Part shown: piece after piece, positions 33,004 through 41,145 of the stretch
How positions within the stretch are numbered: position 1 is the stretch's first letter
Layout of the letters: every line of letters starts with the position of its first letter
Source: Corynebacterium terpenotabidum Y-11
Lineage (GTDB): Bacteria > Actinomycetota > Actinomycetes > Mycobacteriales > Mycobacteriaceae
Length of the DNA: 64,000 bases
Assembly: GCF_000418365.1 (NCBI RefSeq)
Contig: NC_021663.1
Location: forward strand, 1-64,000
Reading direction: 5' to 3'
Translations under genes and position numbers: made by a program
Notes under the pieces: generated by a model
Database searches by the model: none
What the model saw: only the letters and a program-made list of their open reading frames with translations
What the model was told of the DNA's origin: nothing

Positions 33004-33076
33004 GGGGCTATAGCTCAGTTGGTAGAGCGTTGCGTTCGCAATGCAAAGGTCTGGGGTTCGATTCCCCATAGCTCCA
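33004..33076 (+). tRNA. tRNA-Ala (anticodon CGC), integration site of the island
   Basis: The acceptor GGGGCTA pairs with TAGCTCC, the D-arm is GCTCAGTTGGTAGAGC, and the anticodon loop TTCGCAA gives CGC. The T-arm GGTTCGATTCC is present, and CCA is not encoded. The last bases (from 33060) are repeated exactly at 41128-41145, so the gene stays functional after integration. Confidence 0.97.
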
Positions 33077-33077
33077 C
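33060..33077. repeat. attL, 18-bp direct repeat
   Basis: GATTCCCCATAGCTCCAC at the tRNA-Ala 3' end is identical to the copy at 41128-41145. It includes the T-stem 3' strand and acceptor 3' strand of the tRNA, a common attB target for tyrosine integrases. Confidence 0.92.
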
Positions 33078-33088
33078 TATCATGGAAT

Positions 33089-33111
33089 CCGTTGGTCATT
33101 CAGACCAGCGG
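33089..33111 (+). terminator. Hairpin after tRNA-Ala, supplied by the island
   Basis: CCGTTGGTC and GACCAGCGG form a 9-bp stem (one G-U) with loop ATTCA, followed by a T-containing tail (GTTCTTTGC). It could terminate the tRNA transcript in place of the original hairpin, now at 41154-41185 beyond the island. Confidence 0.5.
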
Positions 33112-33190
33112 GTTCTTTGCTTTGTGCAGGTCATGGGCATGATCGTACTACACCGGTGCACGGCAGGGGGCCGCGATGAACGGCACTGTT

Positions 33191-33259
33191 GCCCAACAGT
33201 TGCCCAACACACCCAACACGTACCCAACGAGTGCCCAACAGTTTGGGTGGCCGTTGGGT
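33191..33259. repeat. Arm-type integrase-binding repeats, left end
   Basis: Five direct copies of the core CCCAAC occur at 33192, 33203, 33212, 33223 and 33234, mostly 11 bases apart. An inverted copy (CGTTGGGT) lies at 33252-33259. The same motif appears near the right end. Regular helical spacing beside the integrase gene is typical of arm sites. Confidence 0.75.
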
Positions 33260-33279
33260 GGGGAGCGGAGAGCGGACAC

Positions 33280-34593
33280 ATGGCACGGAATGATCGTCGG
33301 GATTGGGGAGAGGTCCAGCGGAGGAAGACGGCGAAGGGGTGGCGCTACTACCCGCGCTACAGGCTTCCGGGTACTGACCGGAGATTCACGCCGGGGGTTG
33401 CGTTTGAGACGCGGGGTGCTGCTGACGGTTGGTTGAAGGCTGAGCGGGAGCGGTGGGAGGACGCTGTAGCGACCGGGACGATTGCACAGTGGTTGCCGCC
33501 ACGACAGTTCCGGGCTGCTGCGGTGGTGGAGCGTGAGCGGGCCGCTGTGACGGTTGCGGACATGATCGGTAGGTGGATTGCGTACAAGGCTGCTACGTCG
33601 TGGGAGGAGTCCACTAGGCAGACTGTGGAACGGCAGTTGACGTTGCGGGTGCTGGACGTTGACGGGGACGCTGGTAGGTTCGCCGCACTGCCGCTGGTGG
33701 ACGTGAAGCGTCGGGACGCTAACGAGTGGTGGTCTGCGGTGTGGGCACAGTTCCCGGATACGGCGGCGACGAACAATGCGGCGAAGAAGCATGTGACTGC
33801 TGCGTTCCGTTGGGCGGCGCGTGAGGAGTTGATTCCGGCTAGTCCTGTTGATCTTGAGTCGCGTCGGGTGAAGGTTGGGCAGGGTGCTTCCCGGTCGGAC
33901 CTGCCGACGATCGCGGATATTCGGATGATCCTTGCGGCAACGCCGGAGAGGTATCGGTTCCCTACGGCTTTGGCGCTGGTGCATGGTCTGCGGACTCAGG
34001 AGGTGTTGGGGCTACGTCGGTGGCAGGTGAAGTGCTCTGTGGACGCTACAGGCAGTGTCTCGTGGGTGATTGATCTGTCTGATCGGGAGCGTGTTCGGGC
34101 TGCTGTGCGGCTTATGGTGGATGGGAAGCAACAGATGGTGGATAAGGGATTGAAGACGGAAGATTCCTACCGGGTGGTGCCGTTGTTCCCGGAGTTCAAC
34201 GAGTTGTGCGAGCGGCATATGCGCCTGCATGCCGCGCCGGGTGCTGAGGGTGTGGTGGTGGTGACGCGCAACGGTACGCGGCTGTTGGATACGTCGTGGA
34301 ACACAACGCTGTCTCGTGCGGCTGGCCGTGCTGCTGACGCTCTGACTGAGGGATTGCCGGAGGGTGAGGCCGCTGTGGTGCGTAAGCGGGTCACGGACGT
34401 GCGGAAGCATGATGGACGCCGTTTCGTTGCGACTGAGTTGCTGGAAGCGGGTATGACACCGGTGGCGGCTGGTGCGTTCATTGGCGACAGGAATGCTGCG
34501 GTAATTCAGGAGCACTACCTACGGCAGACGGCAGAGCGGACCGCTGAGGGGCTGGCACGGGTCGCGGAGCGGTTGCGCGGTTCGGGGGAGTAG
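33280..34593 (+). CDS. int: Tyrosine recombinase / integrase of the island
   Basis: The 437-residue integrase excises and inserts the element by site-specific recombination. An N-terminal arm-binding part (YPRYRLPGTDRRFTPG) and a core-binding SAM-like domain (VADMIGRWIAYK) precede the catalytic domain. Catalytic residues visible are R238 in HGLRTQEVLGLRRW, H377-x-x-R380 in KHDGRRFVATELLEAG, and the nucleophile Y413 in QEHYLRQT. ATG 33280 is chosen because the upstream open frame crosses the arm repeats and the tRNA. The gene starts 0.2 kb from attL and reads inward. All key residues are present, so it is probably active. Confidence 0.93.
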   Translation: MARNDRRDWGEVQRRKTAKGWRYYPRYRLPGTDRRFTPGVAFETRGAADGWLKAERERWEDAVATGTIAQWLPPRQFRAAAVVERERAAVTVADMIGRWIAYKAATSWEESTRQTVERQLTLRVLDVDGDAGRFAALPLVDVKRRDANEWWSAVWAQFPDTAATNNAAKKHVTAAFRWAAREELIPASPVDLESRRVKVGQGASRSDLPTIADIRMILAATPERYRFPTALALVHGLRTQEVLGLRRWQVKCSVDATGSVSWVIDLSDRERVRAAVRLMVDGKQQMVDKGLKTEDSYRVVPLFPEFNELCERHMRLHAAPGAEGVVVVTRNGTRLLDTSWNTTLSRAAGRAADALTEGLPEGEAAVVRKRVTDVRKHDGRRFVATELLEAGMTPVAAGAFIGDRNAAVIQEHYLRQTAERTAEGLARVAERLRGSGE

Positions 34594-35030
34594 TCGCGCC
34601 GGGGTGTGGCCGTGAGGGGCGGCTGTCAGATTGTGACATTTGGCGAACTTTGGGGGGATAGGTACCCCTCGTTTGGCGGCACGTCCCCGACCTGCGGCTT
34701 TTCGGGAGGGGAGATAATTGGCGACTGTTATAGTTAGAGGGAGACGAAGAGCGAAAAAATGTGACCTTTTACCTGTGGCCCCGCTTTTTGTTCACCTCGT
34801 TTTGCTGACTGTGCTTGACCTGCACATTTGACTTGCGTCACCGAATGTGCATGTGCTACAATCGGGGGGTAGGTATGTCACCGGCTGGATGATTGGCCGT
34901 ACACCTGCACTTTCGTCTCACTGACGATCACGGTTTCCGCCAGGGGAGCGGAACTGTCTCCAAACCATTGTGCCCACGCTGCATCGCGGCTGGGTCACTT
35001 CTGCATGTCCGAAGAAAGGAACATTTACCA
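34594..35030. other. Intergenic region with candidate promoter of the HTH operon
   Basis: No gene is seen in these 437 bases. The sequence is AT-richer than its surroundings. An extended -10-like TGCTACAAT (34854-34862) is the best promoter candidate for the following genes. The Shine-Dalgarno sequence GAAGAAAGGA of the excisionase-like gene is at 35011-35020. Confidence 0.45.
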
Positions 35031-35219
35031 ATGAACACACCGAAGTACATTAGCGCCAATCGCGCTGCGGAGATTCTGGGCGTCACCCGGCGAACCATCT
35101 TCCGCAAACTGGACGCTGGACTACTCACCCGATACGCAATGGGTGGTCTGCTCCGCCTAGACGAGAACGAATTGCATGCGGTCATGGCCGCTGCTAACCG
35201 CAACACCGCCGACGATTAG
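35031..35219 (+). CDS. Small HTH protein, excisionase/AlpA-like
   Basis: The 62-residue protein has a MerR/excisionase-type helix-turn-helix (ISANRAAEILGVTRRTIFRKLDAGLL) followed by a short wing and LDENELHAVM. Such proteins act as recombination directionality factors or small regulators beside integrases. ATG 35031 has GAAAGGA 11 bases upstream. The next HTH gene starts 10 bases after its stop, so they are probably cotranscribed. Directionality-factor function is inferred from position and family. Confidence 0.75.
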   Translation: MNTPKYISANRAAEILGVTRRTIFRKLDAGLLTRYAMGGLLRLDENELHAVMAAANRNTADD

Positions 35220-35228
35220 GAGCGCCTT

Positions 35229-35468
35229 TTGACTGATCTTGATTCACTGTCCGGCATTGACCTCGGTGGCCGTGCCGTATTGAACCAGAAAGACGCCGCG
35301 CAATTCCTGGGCGTGAGCGTTGACACTATTCGCCACCGTACGAATGACGGGACTCTGGACTGCTACCGGCTAGGGGCGTGCGGTAAAGAGCGCCTGTACC
35401 GCGTCTCTGACCTGTTGGCCGCACTGGTCCTCATTCCGACTGCTGGCACGATTGCTGCCGGTCGCTAA
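35229..35468 (+). CDS. Second small HTH protein, excisionase family
   Basis: The 79-residue product carries VLNQKDAAQFLGVSVDTIRHRTNDGTLDCYRL, a helix-turn-helix like that of the excisionase family, then RLYRVSDLLAALVL. The start is a TTG at 35229 behind TAGGAG, which overlaps the previous stop. Two tandem small HTH proteins suggest one directionality factor and one regulator, but which is which cannot be told. Confidence 0.7.
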   Translation: MTDLDSLSGIDLGGRAVLNQKDAAQFLGVSVDTIRHRTNDGTLDCYRLGACGKERLYRVSDLLAALVLIPTAGTIAAGR

Positions 35469-35493
35469 ACACCCACAACCGAAAGGGAACAAC

Positions 35494-36666
35494 ATGAACA
35501 CTATTCCGAACACCCCGCTACCCGCGAATCTCAGCGTCGCAGACGACCACCGTAGGGCTTATGCCCGACCCGCTGATTTCGTCCGTCCTACGGCCTATGA
35601 GAGCCGTCTAGAGGCTATTGCAGGGGCGTGGAACGTCGCCCCGGAAGACCTACTGCACAAGGGCTATGTGGACGCTAAGGCTGAGGTTGAGAAGGTTGAA
35701 GCGGAGATTGCCGAGTACGCCCCGGTTTCGCTTCCTGACGCTTCCGTGCTGCGTGAGAAGAATGACGCCGGTCGCCGGAAGATCATCAATGATACGCGTG
35801 CGGAGAATGAGTACCGGGCACAGGTGAGGGCTGAACTGCATGAGGTCCGGCAGTCCACTGTGGAGACGCTAGAGGCGAATAAGGCCCCGGAGTTGACGTT
35901 TAACCACGTCATGTCTGTTCTGCTGGTCGCTGAGACTGCGGCGAAGGTCCGGGCAATGGCTAAGTACCTTGGCGCTTACTCTAACCACGACGTGCTACCG
36001 CTCACCCTAAAGACCGGTAATGATTTGCGTGACGCTGTGGCTGCTAATGCCGTCATTCCTGAGTTCCGCGCCGGGCTAAATCGTCTACTCATGCTTGATC
36101 TACTGCTGCCGAATCCTGCCGAGGGTTATGCGCTGTTCACGGACCCCGGTATCTCCGGTTATCTCACATTCCGCCACAACGTTTCCAACTCTGGAAAGGT
36201 CATTAGCACCGTCTGCGATTGGAATACCGCTGACGAGGTAACCCACAAGGTTGCAGAGGATTTCCGGGAAGCGTTTATCGGCGGGTTTACCGACGGCATT
36301 GCCGGTCGCCGTCTGAGCGATAACAACCAGTTCTCAGGTATCGGTTCCGGTGATAAGACTGTGACGCCTTTGGCGCGCGGTCTGATTGGTGATCTGACGC
36401 TTGACGTGGCCCCGTCTTGGGACGTGCTGCAGGACCGTCTGCGGCGTTTCAGCGAGGCTAACCGGAAGGCTGAGGACCGGGACAATCGTTTCAGTGCTGA
36501 CGTGTTTGAAGATTCGGAGTCTCATATCCTGAATCGTGAGACCGGTCAGTATGAGCGGGTTATCATTCGCCGTAATCTGCGTGACAATTCGGTCCAGCGG
36601 ATCACTGTTGGTTCGACGGTGCCGGAACCGGATTCCGCGCCGTTCATCCAGCCCGTTCGGAACTAG
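35494..36666 (+). CDS. Island protein of unknown function (390 aa)
   Basis: The protein is not recognised. It is soluble and rich in charged helices, with a probable coiled coil around residues 60-125 (KAEVEKVEAEIAEYAP). A mixed alpha/beta half follows, with LTFNHVMSVLLVAETAAKVRAMAKYL, and the tail is Pro-rich. ATG 35494 has GAAAGGGA upstream. It is the largest cargo gene after the integrase and follows the two HTH genes closely. Position and length would fit a replication or regulatory protein of the element, but no motif supports that. Confidence 0.75.
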   Translation: MNTIPNTPLPANLSVADDHRRAYARPADFVRPTAYESRLEAIAGAWNVAPEDLLHKGYVDAKAEVEKVEAEIAEYAPVSLPDASVLREKNDAGRRKIINDTRAENEYRAQVRAELHEVRQSTVETLEANKAPELTFNHVMSVLLVAETAAKVRAMAKYLGAYSNHDVLPLTLKTGNDLRDAVAANAVIPEFRAGLNRLLMLDLLLPNPAEGYALFTDPGISGYLTFRHNVSNSGKVISTVCDWNTADEVTHKVAEDFREAFIGGFTDGIAGRRLSDNNQFSGIGSGDKTVTPLARGLIGDLTLDVAPSWDVLQDRLRRFSEANRKAEDRDNRFSADVFEDSESHILNRETGQYERVIIRRNLRDNSVQRITVGSTVPEPDSAPFIQPVRN

Positions 36667-36683
36667 GCTGAGGTGACTGACGT

Positions 36684-36824
36684 ATGACTCATTTTGAACA
36701 ATTTGTGTCCGATTTCATTGGGAGACTAGACCGGATAGACCAGCAGTGCGGCGATGTTGAAAAAACCATCTCTGACCTGCGAGAAAGCCTTGTACGCCCA
36801 TTTGCGGGACTAAACACCCTGTAA
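36684..36824 (+). CDS. Small unknown island protein (46 aa)
   Basis: A short frame begins with ATG 36684 preceded by GAGG (36670-36673, 10 bases upstream). It encodes a helical, charged peptide (MTHFEQFVSDFIGRLDRIDQ at the N-terminus, ending FAGLNTL) with a coiled-coil-like pattern. It lies 17 bases after the 390-residue gene. It is likely a real small gene from spacing and composition, with function unknown. Confidence 0.5.
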   Translation: MTHFEQFVSDFIGRLDRIDQQCGDVEKTISDLRESLVRPFAGLNTL

Positions 36825-36893
36825 CCCTACCAATACCCGTTCAGGGGCTTAAACAGCCTCTCAGCGGGCCTACAATTAACGAGAGAGAGTGAA

Positions 36894-37136
36894 ATGACTG
36901 AGTTTAACTACATCAATACCGAGGACGCTAGTCGCGGCGCACAGAAGCGCGAAACGTTGGGGTCCATCCCTTGTGGTTTCCGTGAGCGAGGAGGACGCCG
37001 GGAATACGCCGACCTTGACGTGTTCACCGTCACCGACGAGGTGAGGGGGACGGCCTATTCATACCTGTGCGTTGCGGATACGGAGATTAGGGTCACTGCA
37101 AAGAGCGCGGCGATTCTGTCGGCACTGCTGGGATAG
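36894..37136 (+). CDS. Small unknown island protein (80 aa)
   Basis: The 80-residue product has alternating strand-like segments (YADLDVFTVTDEVRGTAYSYLCVADTEIRVTAKSAAILSALLG). It is probably a small alpha/beta protein. ATG 36894 has GAGAGAG just upstream. It begins the compact cluster of four small genes (36894-37970). No family is recognised. Confidence 0.62.
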   Translation: MTEFNYINTEDASRGAQKRETLGSIPCGFRERGGRREYADLDVFTVTDEVRGTAYSYLCVADTEIRVTAKSAAILSALLG

Positions 37137-37148
37137 GAGAAGCGACGA

Positions 37149-37505
37149 ATGAGCGTGAATATAGCGAGTGAGGACTGGGTTCGCTGGGGCCTTAGCGTGT
37201 GGCGGAAGGCCGTTCGTGAGAATAACGACATTAGCGCGGAAATGAAGTTGAGCATCCTTGATCTAGAAGACCGAATGAAAGATTGTCGAGTCCGACTGTC
37301 TGCGCTCGAAGAGGAAGACGAGACTGCCGGTAACTGTCTGGTCAGCGCCGCGACTACCGCTTGCGAGCACGGGTTAATGGACCTCAGAAAGGCACACGGC
37401 GACACGATTTTCTGGGCATCTATGCCGCTCGCCGTTCCGTTCTGGGCGGCAGTAATAGAGGATTACCGCAAGGCAAAACGGGAACAAAAAGGAGATAAGG
37501 AATGA
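37149..37505 (+). CDS. Small unknown island protein (118 aa)
   Basis: The 118-residue protein has a helical, acidic N-terminal half with a likely coiled coil (AEMKLSILDLEDRMKDCRVRLSALEEEDE trimmed here to about residues 30-60). A hydrophobic segment follows (WASMPLAVPFWAAVIEDY), which may be membrane-associated or a buried helix. It begins 12 bases after the previous gene, and its stop overlaps the next start (ATGA). Confidence 0.62.
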   Translation: MSVNIASEDWVRWGLSVWRKAVRENNDISAEMKLSILDLEDRMKDCRVRLSALEEEDETAGNCLVSAATTACEHGLMDLRKAHGDTIFWASMPLAVPFWAAVIEDYRKAKREQKGDKE

Positions 37506-37663
37506 GCACCGTGAAGGTAGACAGGTACCGCACTAAGGCCGGTGACCTGTTGTGGCGAATCTCTAATGGTAGGCGTGACCTACTGCTAGACGATAAGAGC
37601 ATGAATGAAGTATTGGCGACCGTCAGAAAGGCGAAAAACAATGAGCGAGAAGTACGACAGTAG
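37502..37663 (+). CDS. Small unknown island protein (53 aa)
   Basis: The 53-residue basic protein starts MSTVKVDRYRTKAGDLLWRI and ends in a charged helix (EVLATVRKAKNNEREVRQ). The ATG overlaps the previous stop (ATGA at 37502-37505). Its 3' end overlaps the next gene by 23 bases in another frame, as in tightly packed phage-like operons. Function unknown. Confidence 0.6.
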   Translation: MSTVKVDRYRTKAGDLLWRISNGRRDLLLDDKSMNEVLATVRKAKNNEREVRQ

Positions 37664-37970
37664 CAGGACGGTTATCGCGGGAGGATGGTTCGCAATGGGC
37701 CGGAAGTTTTGTGAAAGGCAGTCGAAGAGCGCTAGCAACCGGAAGTGGCAGAGAGTGGCGTTCTACTGTTACGCGAACATGAAGGCCGGTGGTCGGTGCG
37801 AGTTGAAGCCTGGCGAGTTGTGCCGTGCGGTGGATACGACGGAGACGCAAATCTACAAGATGATCGCTAAGGCTGTGGATGAGGGATGGTTGGCCCGTGG
37901 GTCTACGCCGTCGTGTTTGCGTGTTTCGGGGCATGATATGCAGATGAATCGGGAGTATTACGGCGGGTAG
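37641..37970 (+). CDS. Probable winged-helix DNA-binding protein
   Basis: The 109-residue product contains ELKPGELCRAVDTTETQIYKMIAKAVDEGWL followed by a short beta wing (TPSCLRVSG). This is the layout of a winged helix-turn-helix. ATG 37641 has GAAAGG 9 bases upstream. It lies immediately before the three palindromic repeats at 38017-38078, which it may bind as a repressor or replication initiator; that link is inferred from position only. Confidence 0.6.
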   Translation: MSEKYDSSRTVIAGGWFAMGRKFCERQSKSASNRKWQRVAFYCYANMKAGGRCELKPGELCRAVDTTETQIYKMIAKAVDEGWLARGSTPSCLRVSGHDMQMNREYYGG

Positions 37971-38278
37971 TTGGGGCTGCAAGTCTGCTACCGTCGAAAC
38001 GCTGTGACCTGCGGTTTTATCCTGGGGGGATAACCCCGATTATCCTGGGGGGATAAGATTATTATCCTGGGGGGATAATAGAAACAGGGGTTGACCTGCT
38101 AAAACGTATTCGTCTCTATGATTCTATCTAGCGTAGCAGTCAACTCAACCACTATTCACGGCACTTTCTCGCACCGACAGGTGCGCCCCTCACCTTTGCT
38201 CACCCACCGCTTGCGGTTCGCCACTACTCACCACCTTTTCATTGCCAATAATGATATTCATCTACGAAAGGACCACGA
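37971..38278. other. Regulatory interval of the island
   Basis: No gene is seen here. It contains the three palindromic repeats, a TTGACC -35-like hexamer (38091) with TATGAT (38117-38122) as a possible but over-spaced -10, and the Shine-Dalgarno GAAAGGA (38266-38272) of the next small gene. Confidence 0.5.
38017..38078. repeat. Three 17-bp palindromic iteron-like repeats
   Basis: TTATCCTGGGGGGATAA occurs three times without a mismatch, at 38017-38033, 38040-38056 and 38062-38078. Each has perfect 6-bp inverted arms TTATCC/GGATAA. The starts are 23 and 22 bases apart, about two helical turns. A TTGACC hexamer follows at 38091-38096. They may be operators or replication iterons. Confidence 0.8.
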
Positions 38279-38473
38279 TTGGACACACATCACCTACCCC
38301 TCACTACGGCCCCGCAGGACGAGGGAAAATCTGAGCGCTACAGCCGTTTCCGGGTAGAGGCACGGGACGGTCAGTTCTGGATCGTGGCCCCCCGACGACG
38401 GTTAGTGCTGGCCCGGAGCCAGGCGCAAGCGTTTGCCGACGTTCTGAATGATTGGTTGCTGGACACCGAATAG
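38279..38473 (+). CDS. Small unknown island protein (64 aa)
   Basis: The 64-residue protein starts at TTG 38279, six bases after GAAAGGA. Its central part FRVEARDGQFWIVAPRRRLVLARSQAQAFADVLNDWL looks like two strands and a helix. It is the first gene downstream of the palindromic repeats and could be under their control. No family is recognised. Confidence 0.6.
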   Translation: MDTHHLPLTTAPQDEGKSERYSRFRVEARDGQFWIVAPRRRLVLARSQAQAFADVLNDWLLDTE

Positions 38474-38600
38474 GATCGCCCCCAACCCCCTCTAATTCGC
38501 GCTCATTGGCCCCTCTGAGCGTCTAACACTGCATGGCCCACCACTGACACACCCTAGGGAGATTTAATCGCTTAAAACCGTAGAATGGAGAAAAATCAAA

Positions 38601-38846
38601 ATGGAAATCCTGCACCCGAACATGAACGACGGGTTTGAGTCCGACACTTGGGCAGACGATCTGACAATCACCGAGTCCTTCGACCGACCTGAGCATGTGT
38701 CGTGGGCGAACCGGAAGCGTCCTACTACGCCGCCACGAGACCCGTGGAATGGCCCTATTGACCAGTTTCTCGACTACTTGACCGGCACCACCACGGCACC
38801 GCCTACGCCGTCTATGTCGAGGATCACCACGGACCCGTGGGAATGA
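38601..38846 (+). CDS. Small unknown protein, possibly the N-terminal part of the ART-like protein
   Basis: The 81-residue product is acidic at the start (MNDGFESDTWADDLTITESF) and ends in a Thr/Pro-rich stretch (TGTTTAPPTPSMS) unlike the rest. GGAG lies 10 bases before ATG 38601. From about 38785 the frame shared with the next gene reads far more protein-like (GTAYAVYVEDHHGPVGMTFV). The two genes may therefore be one gene split by a frameshift near the repeated ACC/CAC triplets at 38783-38800. Alternatively this is a coupled antitoxin-like partner. Both readings are inference. Confidence 0.55.
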   Translation: MEILHPNMNDGFESDTWADDLTITESFDRPEHVSWANRKRPTTPPRDPWNGPIDQFLDYLTGTTTAPPTPSMSRITTDPWE

Positions 38847-39361
38847 CGTTTGTCCACGAGGACGGCCACATCACCCGGTTACGGGCGAAACTACTGACCG
38901 GGCAATCACCGACGCCGTTGCAACTACTCACCGCATGGACCCGTAGCGGACACCCCGAACTACTCATGCCGCAAGAAGAGTGGATAGACCTCTTCCGCAA
39001 GGCCCACATGCCCACACCAGACCAGCCCGTCACCGTGTACCGGGGCGCACACGTAGACGAATGGACCTATCAGCACTTCAGCATGTCGTGGACGACCAGC
39101 CGTCAGGCCGCTGTGGTGTTCGCCCGGCAACGTCCAGAGGACCGCACCGTACTAGAGGCCACAGCGCCCCTAGGGGCCGTTCTCGTGGACTGTGAAGCCG
39201 TCTATGCACGGGCACGGGCACAGGGGTTACGGCTGTCCACAGCGGAACCGGAAATCATCGTGGACCCGCTACTACTCACCGACGTTCGGCAGGTACCGGA
39301 GCGACAACAGAACGACCGATTGGCACTAGACACATTCATTAAACAGAGGAGACAATTATGA
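38843..39361 (+). CDS. ADP-ribosyltransferase-like protein
   Basis: The 172-residue protein carries the order of motifs seen in R-S-E ADP-ribosyltransferases: VYRG (Arg67), SWTTS (residues 82-86) and E135-x-E137 in AEPEIIVDP. Spacing is compatible with a minimal ART fold. Such enzymes move ADP-ribose from NAD to proteins or nucleic acids and occur as phage effectors or toxins. ATG 38843 overlaps the previous stop (ATGA). The same frame is open and protein-like upstream to about 38762 without a start codon, so a lost or frameshifted N-terminus is possible. The assignment rests on motifs only. Confidence 0.5.
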   Translation: MTFVHEDGHITRLRAKLLTGQSPTPLQLLTAWTRSGHPELLMPQEEWIDLFRKAHMPTPDQPVTVYRGAHVDEWTYQHFSMSWTTSRQAAVVFARQRPEDRTVLEATAPLGAVLVDCEAVYARARAQGLRLSTAEPEIIVDPLLLTDVRQVPERQQNDRLALDTFIKQRRQL

Positions 39362-40035
39362 ATACGAAACAACTAGACCGGAACACCGGCTACACCGAAG
39401 AGGATACGAACAGCCCGCATTTCATCGCCGGTAGCGGCTACCGAAGCGTTCCGGGCTTCCCGAATATTCACGTGCTGGCAGATGGTACCGAAGTTTGGAA
39501 TGCGAAGACGGGGAAGGCATACAAGATTTGGCTGAACTATGCTGGATACCCAATGGTGACGTTTTGCGGACGAAAGTGGCGAGTGCAGAGGCTGGTGCTT
39601 GCTGCATGGTTCCCCGGCTGTCTTGACGATGGATCGTTTGCCCTTCACAGGACACCTAAGCGGGATTTTGCGGCGGTGTGGAACCTCAGGCCTGGGACAC
39701 AGGCCGAAAACGTGCAGGATCGTCTACGAGATGGAAACGACCACAACGCGAGGAAGGCCCTATGCGTCAACGGTCATCCGATCGTGGGGGCTAACCTCGT
39801 GAAGGCCGAACTAATCCTAGGTCATCGCAAGTGCCGATCATGCGCTAATGCTCGTGCGAAGATTCGTGACGCTCGGAAGCGCAAGGGCGTTGACCTTTCC
39901 GACCAGTTCCAGAGGTTCGCTGACCAGTACTGTGACCAGTATCTCGCGGATACTTTTCTACCGCTTCCGCTGACTCCGGTCGACGTGCTTCAACGCCGCG
40001 TGGACGCCGTGACGGACGTGGAGTGGTGTGATTAA
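39358..40035 (+). CDS. HNH-endonuclease-like phage-type protein
   Basis: The 225-residue protein resembles NUMOD4/HNH proteins of phages. It has GFPNIHVLADGTEVWNAKTGK, then YPMVTFCGRKWRVQRLVLAAWFPG, then ALHRTPKRDFAAVWNLRPGTQAENVQD, the pattern of an HNH_3 fold. The usual VNHxDG is replaced by ALHRTPKRD, so one catalytic residue may be changed. A second part has four Cys/His positions (CVNGHPIVG ... HRKCRSCANARAKIRDARKRKG), probably a zinc-binding module. The ATG overlaps the previous stop. It could be a homing or packaging-associated nuclease. Confidence 0.62.
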   Translation: MNTKQLDRNTGYTEEDTNSPHFIAGSGYRSVPGFPNIHVLADGTEVWNAKTGKAYKIWLNYAGYPMVTFCGRKWRVQRLVLAAWFPGCLDDGSFALHRTPKRDFAAVWNLRPGTQAENVQDRLRDGNDHNARKALCVNGHPIVGANLVKAELILGHRKCRSCANARAKIRDARKRKGVDLSDQFQRFADQYCDQYLADTFLPLPLTPVDVLQRRVDAVTDVEWCD

Positions 40036-40628
40036 TTAACCTTGGGGTTAGAAAGGCAGGTCAGGGGGTGTTTTCACTGAGGGTCAGGATTTTACGGATT
40101 GTTCCGCTAAATCCCTGACCAGCGGAAACGTCGGACGCCCCCGGCAATGCTTCCCGGTGCCGGGAACGTATGCCCTGACCAGCAATGTTGGGGGCGTACC
40201 CAAAAAGGTTCACAACACCTCCCAGATTTTCGCGGGTGACTAGTTTTGACCTATGCCAAAAAGTCCATTACCTGGGATGAAACACCGTTGAAAAGTAGGA
40301 AACTCGTACACCGAGAGGCCCATACAGCGTGACACCCTGTGCGCAAACGCGGCTTTCAGGAGTGCTCGCAATCGAAGGCGCTATGACACCGGACTGGCCG
40401 TAGTCGCTGGCCTGGGGTGCCCCCCGGGGGTCTGGTCGGGGTGTGGTTTGCCTTATGAAACTGTGGTATTGGTGGGGGGTTAGTTCGCCGTTCGGGGTGG
40501 GGTGGTTTTCGGTGGCGGCACCGAGAAGGCCTAGCCGGTCTTGTTGTCGGTGTCCTGTGTGCCGGGGAGGGGTTTTGACGGCTGTCCATAACAAGTCCTC
40601 GGTGGTGTGGGGAGACTGGCGCGGAGGT

Positions 40629-40648
40629 TTTCTCCCAAGCGGGAGAAA
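40629..40648. repeat. Perfect 8-bp hairpin
   Basis: TTTCTCCC and GGGAGAAA form an 8-bp perfect stem with loop AAGC. It is in the noncoding right part of the island; a terminator or processing signal is possible. Confidence 0.5.
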
Positions 40649-40880
40649 GTCCTGCCCCTGTCGTCTGTGCCGCTGTTCCCGGTCCTGCCGTCCTGGTGAC
40701 CGTTTCACCACCAATGGTGAATAGTCCGGCTAGCGTCCCTGTTTGCCCCCTGTACGGCGCTCTGCGGCCCTTATAGGCCGTGGCCCTTACCAGACGTAGA
40801 AAGTAGCCCCCTCATGGCCTGTAGTGGTCCTGTGGGGGCTTTGTCGTGCCTGTGGTGGGGTCTAGTGTCTGGTGTGCGTG

Positions 40881-40943
40881 GTCTCGGGCGTGCTGTGCAA
40901 GGTCTCGGGCGTGCTGTGCAAGGTCTCGTGCGTACTGTGCCAC
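40881..40943. repeat. Three tandem 21-bp repeats
   Basis: The unit GTCTCGGGCGTGCTGTGCAAG is present twice exactly (40881-40901, 40902-40922), described here in part, and once with changes (40923-40943). On the minus strand a 54-codon frame (40976 to 40812) reads it as the heptad ARDLAQH three times. No good ribosome binding site precedes that frame, so coding is doubtful. Confidence 0.65.
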
Positions 40944-41048
40944 GTCGGCGTTAGTGTTGGGCGTGTCCGTGTCCATGCTTCCGGGGTGGATGGTGGTCGG
41001 GGTTGTGGTGGTGTTGCTCCCGGTTAGGGTTACCTTTGTTTGTGGTAT

Positions 41049-41091
41049 ACCCAACCACTGCCCAACAAGACTGTCCGGTCGGTTGTTGGGT
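41049..41091. repeat. Arm-type integrase-binding repeats, right end
   Basis: ACCCAACC (41049-41056), GCCCAACA (41060-41067) and the inverted TGTTGGGT (41084-41091) repeat the motif found beside the integrase gene. They sit 37-80 bases inside attR, as expected for the second attP arm. Confidence 0.72.
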
Positions 41092-41127
41092 AGGGCTGTG
41101 ACCAGCGGCGATAGTGTGTAAGTGGTG

Positions 41128-41145
41128 GATTCCCCATAGCTCCAC
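41128..41145. repeat. attR, 18-bp direct repeat
   Basis: This exact copy of GATTCCCCATAGCTCCAC from the tRNA-Ala(CGC) 3' end marks the right boundary of the island. The bases upstream do not form the rest of a tRNA. Confidence 0.92.

Follow-up and report, generated by a model that had tools for sequence, protein, structure and literature searches.

What is the 8-kb piece of DNA that lies behind the tRNA-Ala(CGC) gene of Corynebacterium terpenotabidum Y-11, and how might so small an element be regulated and moved? It lies in a window of 64,000 nucleotides (NC_021663.1, positions 1 to 64,000; assembly GCF_000418365.1; this genome is G000), whose initial annotation proposed an integrated element at 33060..41145, without structural or transfer genes and perhaps a new class of phage satellite. 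The answer towards which we lean is that it is an intact site-specific element of a small, transfer-gene-less Corynebacterium family, and that a cassette consisting of a putative regulatory gene, g109, and its presumed operators has been swapped between backbones of that family.

An integrated element and its relatives

The integration target is an intact tRNA-Ala(CGC) gene (33004..33077, plus strand; identified by ARAGORN and by Rfam RF00005 at 70.6 bits). Its last 18 bases, GATTCCCCATAGCTCCAC, constitute attL, the left attachment (att) site (33060..33077, plus strand), and recur exactly, as a direct repeat, at attR (41128..41145, plus strand). The annotated span thus stands as regards its att repeats, but the element proper starts directly 3' of the tRNA and extends over 33078-41145, or 8.07 kb; its G+C content is 57.9%, versus 66.9% for the remaining window. 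At a distance of 9 nt past attR there is a terminator-like hairpin (AGGGCACTTTCC...) that, in the window and in a related element (L006, of C. variabile NBRC 15286, genome G233), starts with GGGCACT. In two other genomes of the genus (G019 and G164; sites L060 and L061) the same tRNA-Ala(CGC) site is empty: the whole tRNA is followed by GGGCACT after 11 and 15 nt. (Of the 242 genus genomes, four have a tRNA followed by this type of pattern, the other two being those of the window and of C. variabile.) The insertion is real, because the hairpin behind attR also follows the empty tRNA-Ala(CGC) in these two genomes, and the initial annotation's claim of integration in this tRNA is borne out.

Beside attL lies a tyrosine integrase of 437 amino acids (33280..34593; phrog_1, 2.8e-29; PF00589, 1.8e-5 and 25.1 bits, just under the cut-off of 27.1), followed by two small helix-turn-helix (HTH) genes: xis1, of excisionase type (62 aa; 35031..35219; TIGR01764, 33.1 bits against a cut-off of 28.8), and xis2, which is AlpA/MerR-like and has a TTG start (79 aa; 35229..35468; PF12728 HTH_17, 30.0 bits against a cut-off of 27). 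Copies of CCCAAC(A/G), counted on both strands, number 13 in the element: six within 85 bp at the left end (33178..33262), two near attR (at 41061 and 41084, in 41048..41092) and five scattered. L006 has six near its left end, one near its right end and three scattered; a second related element, L007 (in genome G163), has three left and three right. The intact integrase and paired arm-type repeats of the initial annotation are both there. A further terminator-like hairpin, directly behind the tRNA (33084..33120, plus strand), is the element's own; the same genome carries a 54-bp relative, 80% identical, immediately 3' of a tRNA-Pro. The sequence thus shows a site-specific integrative element behind a tRNA, with a tyrosine integrase and xis-type partners; it is intact and looks excisable.

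Family scans (Pfam and NCBIfam on 10 of the 13 proteins each, PHROGs on all 13, PADLOC on 8) recognised only the integrase, xis1, xis2 and an HNH protein, and gave no meaningful Pfam, NCBIfam or PHROGs match to replication, capsid, portal, terminase, relaxase or FtsK-type proteins; the absence of recognisable structural and transfer genes is therefore upheld. That the cargo is mostly unrecognised holds for six genes without a significant family match in these library scans (g390, g80, g118, g109, g81 and g174), but not for the two excisionase-type HTH proteins and the HNH/homing endonuclease, which reach family level. (The HTH proteins also give weak small-terminase matches, the best of them 0.0025, for xis2; we take these to reflect the HTH that they probably share.)

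The search for relatives with the same gene order, another suggestion of the initial annotation, uncovered a recurring family. L006 has all 13 window genes in order, at the same tRNA and with the same 18-bp att; L007 sits at tRNA-Arg(TCT), has a 15-bp att repeat and retains nine of the 13 in the same order. Its HNH gene is only a C-terminal piece at another place in the element, and g46, g118 and g64 were not found in it. G163 has a fourth copy as well, which begins at a tRNA-Ala(CGC) on contig C31 (L013) and continues on contig C45 (L059, a truncated locus); the two parts are assigned to one copy because the integrase is split across both. This copy lacks g390 by tblastn, its g174 homologue is cut short, and no attR was seen in the 12 kb read. 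The gene order conserved in these sequences is shown to be int, xis1, xis2, (g390), (g80), g53, g109, three palindromes, g81 and g174. None of the 13 genes has an internal stop when the window is compared with L006. The ratio of nonsynonymous to synonymous substitution rates (dN/dS) runs from 0.065 (int) to 0.54 (g46) in 12 genes (dS of g109 is not computable); dS exceeds 1 in six of the 12, so those ratios are rough. With dN/dS below 1 throughout, the 12 genes appear to be under purifying selection.

The g109 gene and its palindromes

Thirteen plausible genes, all on the plus strand, lie between the att copies: the integrase, the two small HTH genes, the 390-aa protein g390 and five small genes up to g109 (37641..37970); then a 0.3-kb gap with three palindromes; then g64, g81, g174 and the HNH gene; and finally 1.1 kb of frameless DNA. 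Comparing the elements pairwise singles out g109. Between the window and L006, the integrase is 97% identical, xis2 94%, g390 83% and g174 81%; g109, at 32%, is the lowest of the 13. Between L006 and L007, the integrase is 36% identical, g390 45%, g174 27% and g109 84%, and a 92-aa HNH-like protein encoded before g109 is 74% identical. At the DNA level, L006 8105-9031 and L007 9302-10233 are 73% identical over 938 columns, from the 92-aa HNH-like gene through g109 and the palindromes.

In all four elements, three palindromes of about 19 bp lie 3' of g109. In the window they are three imperfectly palindromic copies of TTATCCTGGGGGGATAA (38017-38033, 38040-38056 and 38062-38078) at 23- and 22-bp spacing; a search permitting up to two mismatches finds these three matches, all of them exact, and none in 100 shuffles. 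The same spacing, 23 and 22 bp, holds in three elements, and is 22 and 21 bp in L059. Three unrelated sequence classes are represented: TTATCCTGGGGGGATAA in the window, the CTATACGAATATCGTATAG type in L006 and the TACTTACTATACTAAGTA type in L059; the L007 palindromes have the arms of the CTATACGAATATCGTATAG type with varied centres. In each of L006, L007 and L059, the triple-dyad score is reached by none of 300 shuffles. Downstream, TGACCTGC (38092..38099, plus strand) is a possible -35 region, its distance from the start of the third site being 32 bp in the window, L006 and L007 and 30 bp in L059. The palindrome class tracks g109 rather than the backbone (L006 and L007 are alike in both, the window and L059 are each distinct), and it is mainly because the site sequence follows g109 in this way that g109 is thought to read the palindromes. 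On its appearance and on two sub-threshold PDB profile matches to winged-helix regulators (AdcR, E 0.098; a CRP/FNR protein, E 0.12), g109 is a putative winged-helix protein of 109 amino acids. We read g109 and its palindromes, newly noticed here, as a swappable regulator-operator (or initiator-iteron) cassette.

How might such a cassette work? As a dimeric winged-helix regulator, g109 would bind the three palindromes; these stop some 10 bp short of TGACCTGC and are placed, on that ground, as operators upstream of a promoter. The regulator would thereby switch a second operon composed of g64, g81, g174 and the HNH gene. Exchange of the g109-palindrome unit between backbones would generate related elements of different specificities, in the manner of the immunity regions of lambdoid phages. 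The least supported steps come last: upon activation, int and xis would excise a circle, which a helper (a phage or a conjugative element) would move, perhaps by way of a site in the 1.1-kb right end.

Several observations weigh against this scheme. G109 does not stand alone in its divergence: between the window and L006, identity is no more than 47-57% for g46, g53, g64 and xis1. Nor does g53 follow the swap (window and L007, 62%; window and L006, 53%; L006 and L007, 49%); g53 being nearer to L007 than to L006, and g46, g64 and xis1 having diverged, more than one exchange must therefore be supposed. The triple-dyad score of the window's palindromes, taken alone, is matched by three of 300 shuffles. 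The candidate -10, picked by eye, lies 20-21 bp past TGACC, which is long for a σ70 promoter. A Pfam search with the window's g109 yields no family above E 1, and the sequences compared revealed neither a helper nor a cos, pac or oriT site.

If g109 were an initiator, or an accessory to initiation, and the palindromes the iterons of a replication origin, the exchange would alter replicon compatibility instead of immunity. An element that excises will as a rule depend on a replicon, and the family scans recognised no primase, helicase or Rep; moreover, all four elements have three repeats, spaced by two helical turns, immediately after a small putative DNA-binding gene, which is what iterons might look like. 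Yet, like most operators, the sites are palindromes, and they keep a fixed distance from TGACCTGC; at 109 amino acids, g109 is small for an initiator, and its L006 homologue has no match in 72,556 plasmid records. We regard this as a possible, but doubtful, account. The operator and iteron readings overlap in everything but the role of g109. The element family is real, intact and recurring, and the case for its swappable putative DNA-binding cassette is persuasive.

Helpers, the right end and the remaining genes

If the element is not self-transmissible, what carries it? A tentative and bolder proposal makes these elements a new family of minimal phage satellites in actinobacteria, which would exchange g109 and its cognate palindromes as heteroimmunity or incompatibility cassettes and whose g390 and 1.1-kb right end would embody an undescribed replication and packaging route. 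"Satellite" is a plausible label; as a claim of the initial annotation it is so far unsupported, there being no recognised packaging or capsid-redirecting gene and no cos- or pac-like stretch common to the elements and the prophage-capsid regions of two related hosts. The element's own genome has no above-threshold match to portal, TerL_ATPase or HK97-type capsid. Among the three hosts, HK97-type capsid matches number three in G233, one in G163 and none in G000, and portal (PF04860) and TerL (PF03354) are above cut-off in none; the controls for these searches were positive in 4, 3 and 4 of 14 genomes. (G000 does have a sub-threshold portal fragment with an internal stop, possibly a prophage remnant, at L044, G000:C1:2199757-2199954.) Between the elements and the surroundings of the capsid genes in the two related hosts, matches are no longer than 20-28 nt, with three exceptions: a small-peptide gene of L007 accounts for two stretches, of 76 and 49 bp, and the third is a 49-bp match at 73%. 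The peptide gene, for 46 amino acids, lies inside the tRNA-Arg element at L007 12016-12156, on the minus strand; its 76-bp match, 83% identical, is in the same genome (G163:C3, L069 17299-17374). The peptide itself recalls the small pore proteins of corynebacteria.

A conjugative hitch-hiker, that is, an integrative and mobilizable element whose only transfer function is an oriT in the non-coding right end, is a rather improbable account as it stands, though as to the class of helper, mobilisation by a conjugative element is no less conceivable than a phage satellite. The conserved non-coding right end with its inverted repeats, like the lack of a recognised phage-derived packaging gene, speaks for it; against it, neither a relaxase nor an FtsK/TraB gene emerged from the family scans, none of the known oriT types was identified, and no plasmid record matches 33078-40078, the part searched. 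This right end (40036..41127; about 1.1 kb, with no continuous frame) is 79% identical to that of C. variabile over query positions 167-1092 and 74% over 19-158; a coding reading of it was rejected, since the matches break between frames. A TGACCAGC motif occurs four times at its start in C. variabile (L006 10912-11200); the corresponding part of the window has two copies. Searched against the 242 genus genomes, the right end gives matches at E<=0.1 in 77, those outside G000 and G233 being about 50 nt or shorter (best E 3.0e-4); nine were viewed, and the neighbourhoods of five genomes. A cluster of matches in a G/C-rich stretch near 40400-40450, considered as a helper cos site, fell in unrelated, mostly coding-looking DNA, and the recurrent AGGTCAGGGGGTGTTTT, considered as helper evidence, was read as a terminator, since in L036 it forms one arm of a terminator-like hairpin next to tRNA-His.

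That the element is the remainder of a decayed prophage, which the initial annotation named as the result that would refute it, is very improbable: tyrosine integrase, HTH and HNH genes are common in prophages too, but in both species every one of the 13 reading frames is open, with the dN/dS values given above for 12, both ends are intact, relatives with a similar order sit at a different tRNA, 33078-41145 has no DNA match in 50,697 phage records, and g390 has none in phage records either. The IMG/VR viral contigs contain no relative of g390 or the integrase and no exact palindrome pairs.

The largest cargo gene is g390 (35494..36666; 390 aa), function unassigned and, in homologue searches, found so far only in this element family. 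Among about 5.8 billion proteins, 11 homologues were found in the best 7998 candidates by common words that were scored; the three with organism names are all Corynebacterium (two C. variabile, one C. neomassiliense). It is present in three of the 242 Corynebacterium genomes, its own included, and, outside its own, in none of 397 genomes drawn evenly from the order (G233 and G163 are not among the matches). Pfam, PHROGs, NCBIfam, PDB profiles and Foldseek (E<=0.001) give no significant family or fold match. A role for g390 as replication initiator found no support: the model has a mean pLDDT (predicted local distance difference test) of 56.9 and no Foldseek match at E<=0.001, the only lead is a sub-threshold gyrase A match (E 0.016), and L059 does without the gene.

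Between g390 and g109 lie g46 (36684..36824; a small open reading frame, also open in L006 at 47% identity) and the uncharacterised g80 (36894..37136; 66% in L006, 34% in L007), g118 (37149..37505; 86% in L006, no match in L007) and g53 (37502..37663; overlapping both neighbours, with homologues in L006, L007 and L059). Past the palindromes come g64 (38279..38473; 53% in L006) and g81 (38601..38846; homologues in L006, L007 and L059), both uncharacterised, then g174 (38837..39361) and the HNH/homing-type endonuclease (225 aa; 39358..40035; phrog_1492, 6.2e-24; PADLOC homing endonuclease, 7.9e-4). G174 is ADP-ribosyltransferase-like by motif only, as aligned by eye (YRGA / SWTT / EPE); Pfam and PDB lend this no support, and its structure model is poor (pLDDT 48.4). 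Two open reading frames related to g174 lie directly behind the tmRNA gene, another common integration site, of G194 (L043 9481-11041). An unrelated element lies behind tRNA-Ala(TGC) in G227 (L035 6636-12941): its integrase is 28% identical, and three of its open reading frames were named, by eye, AAA helicase-like, HNH-like and methylase-like.

Comparison with known systems

According to PMC10023795, satellites could be numerous among the small (<15 kb) prophage-like elements of actinobacteria. The present element is a concrete and complete example of such a prophage-like element, with relatives and a specific hypothesis attached; in the open-access literature, no paper was recognised, by title or start of abstract, as describing its family. 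If the proposals made here are true, Corynebacterium offers a compact, testable satellite-like family and, on related backbones, natural regulator-operator pairs of three specificities.

Integrative conjugative elements of actinobacteria, pSAM2 for one, combine tRNA integration, int/xis and regulator genes with Rep and an FtsK-like Tra; the present element is like them in the first three and differs in that no Rep or FtsK-like Tra was recognised. With the hitcher genetic elements, as portrayed in parts of PMC11389934, it would share an integrative life and dependence on foreign transfer machinery; it differs in its candidate swappable regulator-site cassette, and its helper class is not assigned here. 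The Streptomyces satellites Mulch and Flayer likewise have an actinobacterial host and no primase, but encode, according to portions of PMC10690885, capsid and packaging genes, none of which was recognised here.

Phage-inducible chromosomal islands (PICIs), as outlined in sections of PMC6092414, likewise integrate site-specifically, carry a terminal integrase together with small genes for regulation and excision, and lack structural and lytic genes. The differences from that outline are size (8.1 kb versus a typical 12-15 kb) and the lack of a recognised pri/rep replication module, terS or packaging interference gene (PMC6092414); nor is there a demonstrated helper. Candidates for a PICI-type master regulator are g109 with its palindromes, and xis2. 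The minimal satellites of the Vibrionaceae (phage-inducible chromosomal minimalist islands, PICMIs) are also small and, in extracts of PMC10803314, have an integrase and a PF12728 HTH (here xis2), large non-coding stretches and no capsid-remodelling genes. The PICMI model described there uses this AlpA-type HTH, makes a primase (DUF3987/DUF5906) mandatory and places the element at fis (PMC10803314); the present element has no primase recognised by Pfam in the 10 of its 13 proteins scanned, uses a tRNA in place of fis, and belongs to another phylum. With no replication module or primase recognised, a length of 8.1 kb and a tRNA site, it is not strictly a PICI, nor strictly a PICMI, though it could work like one.

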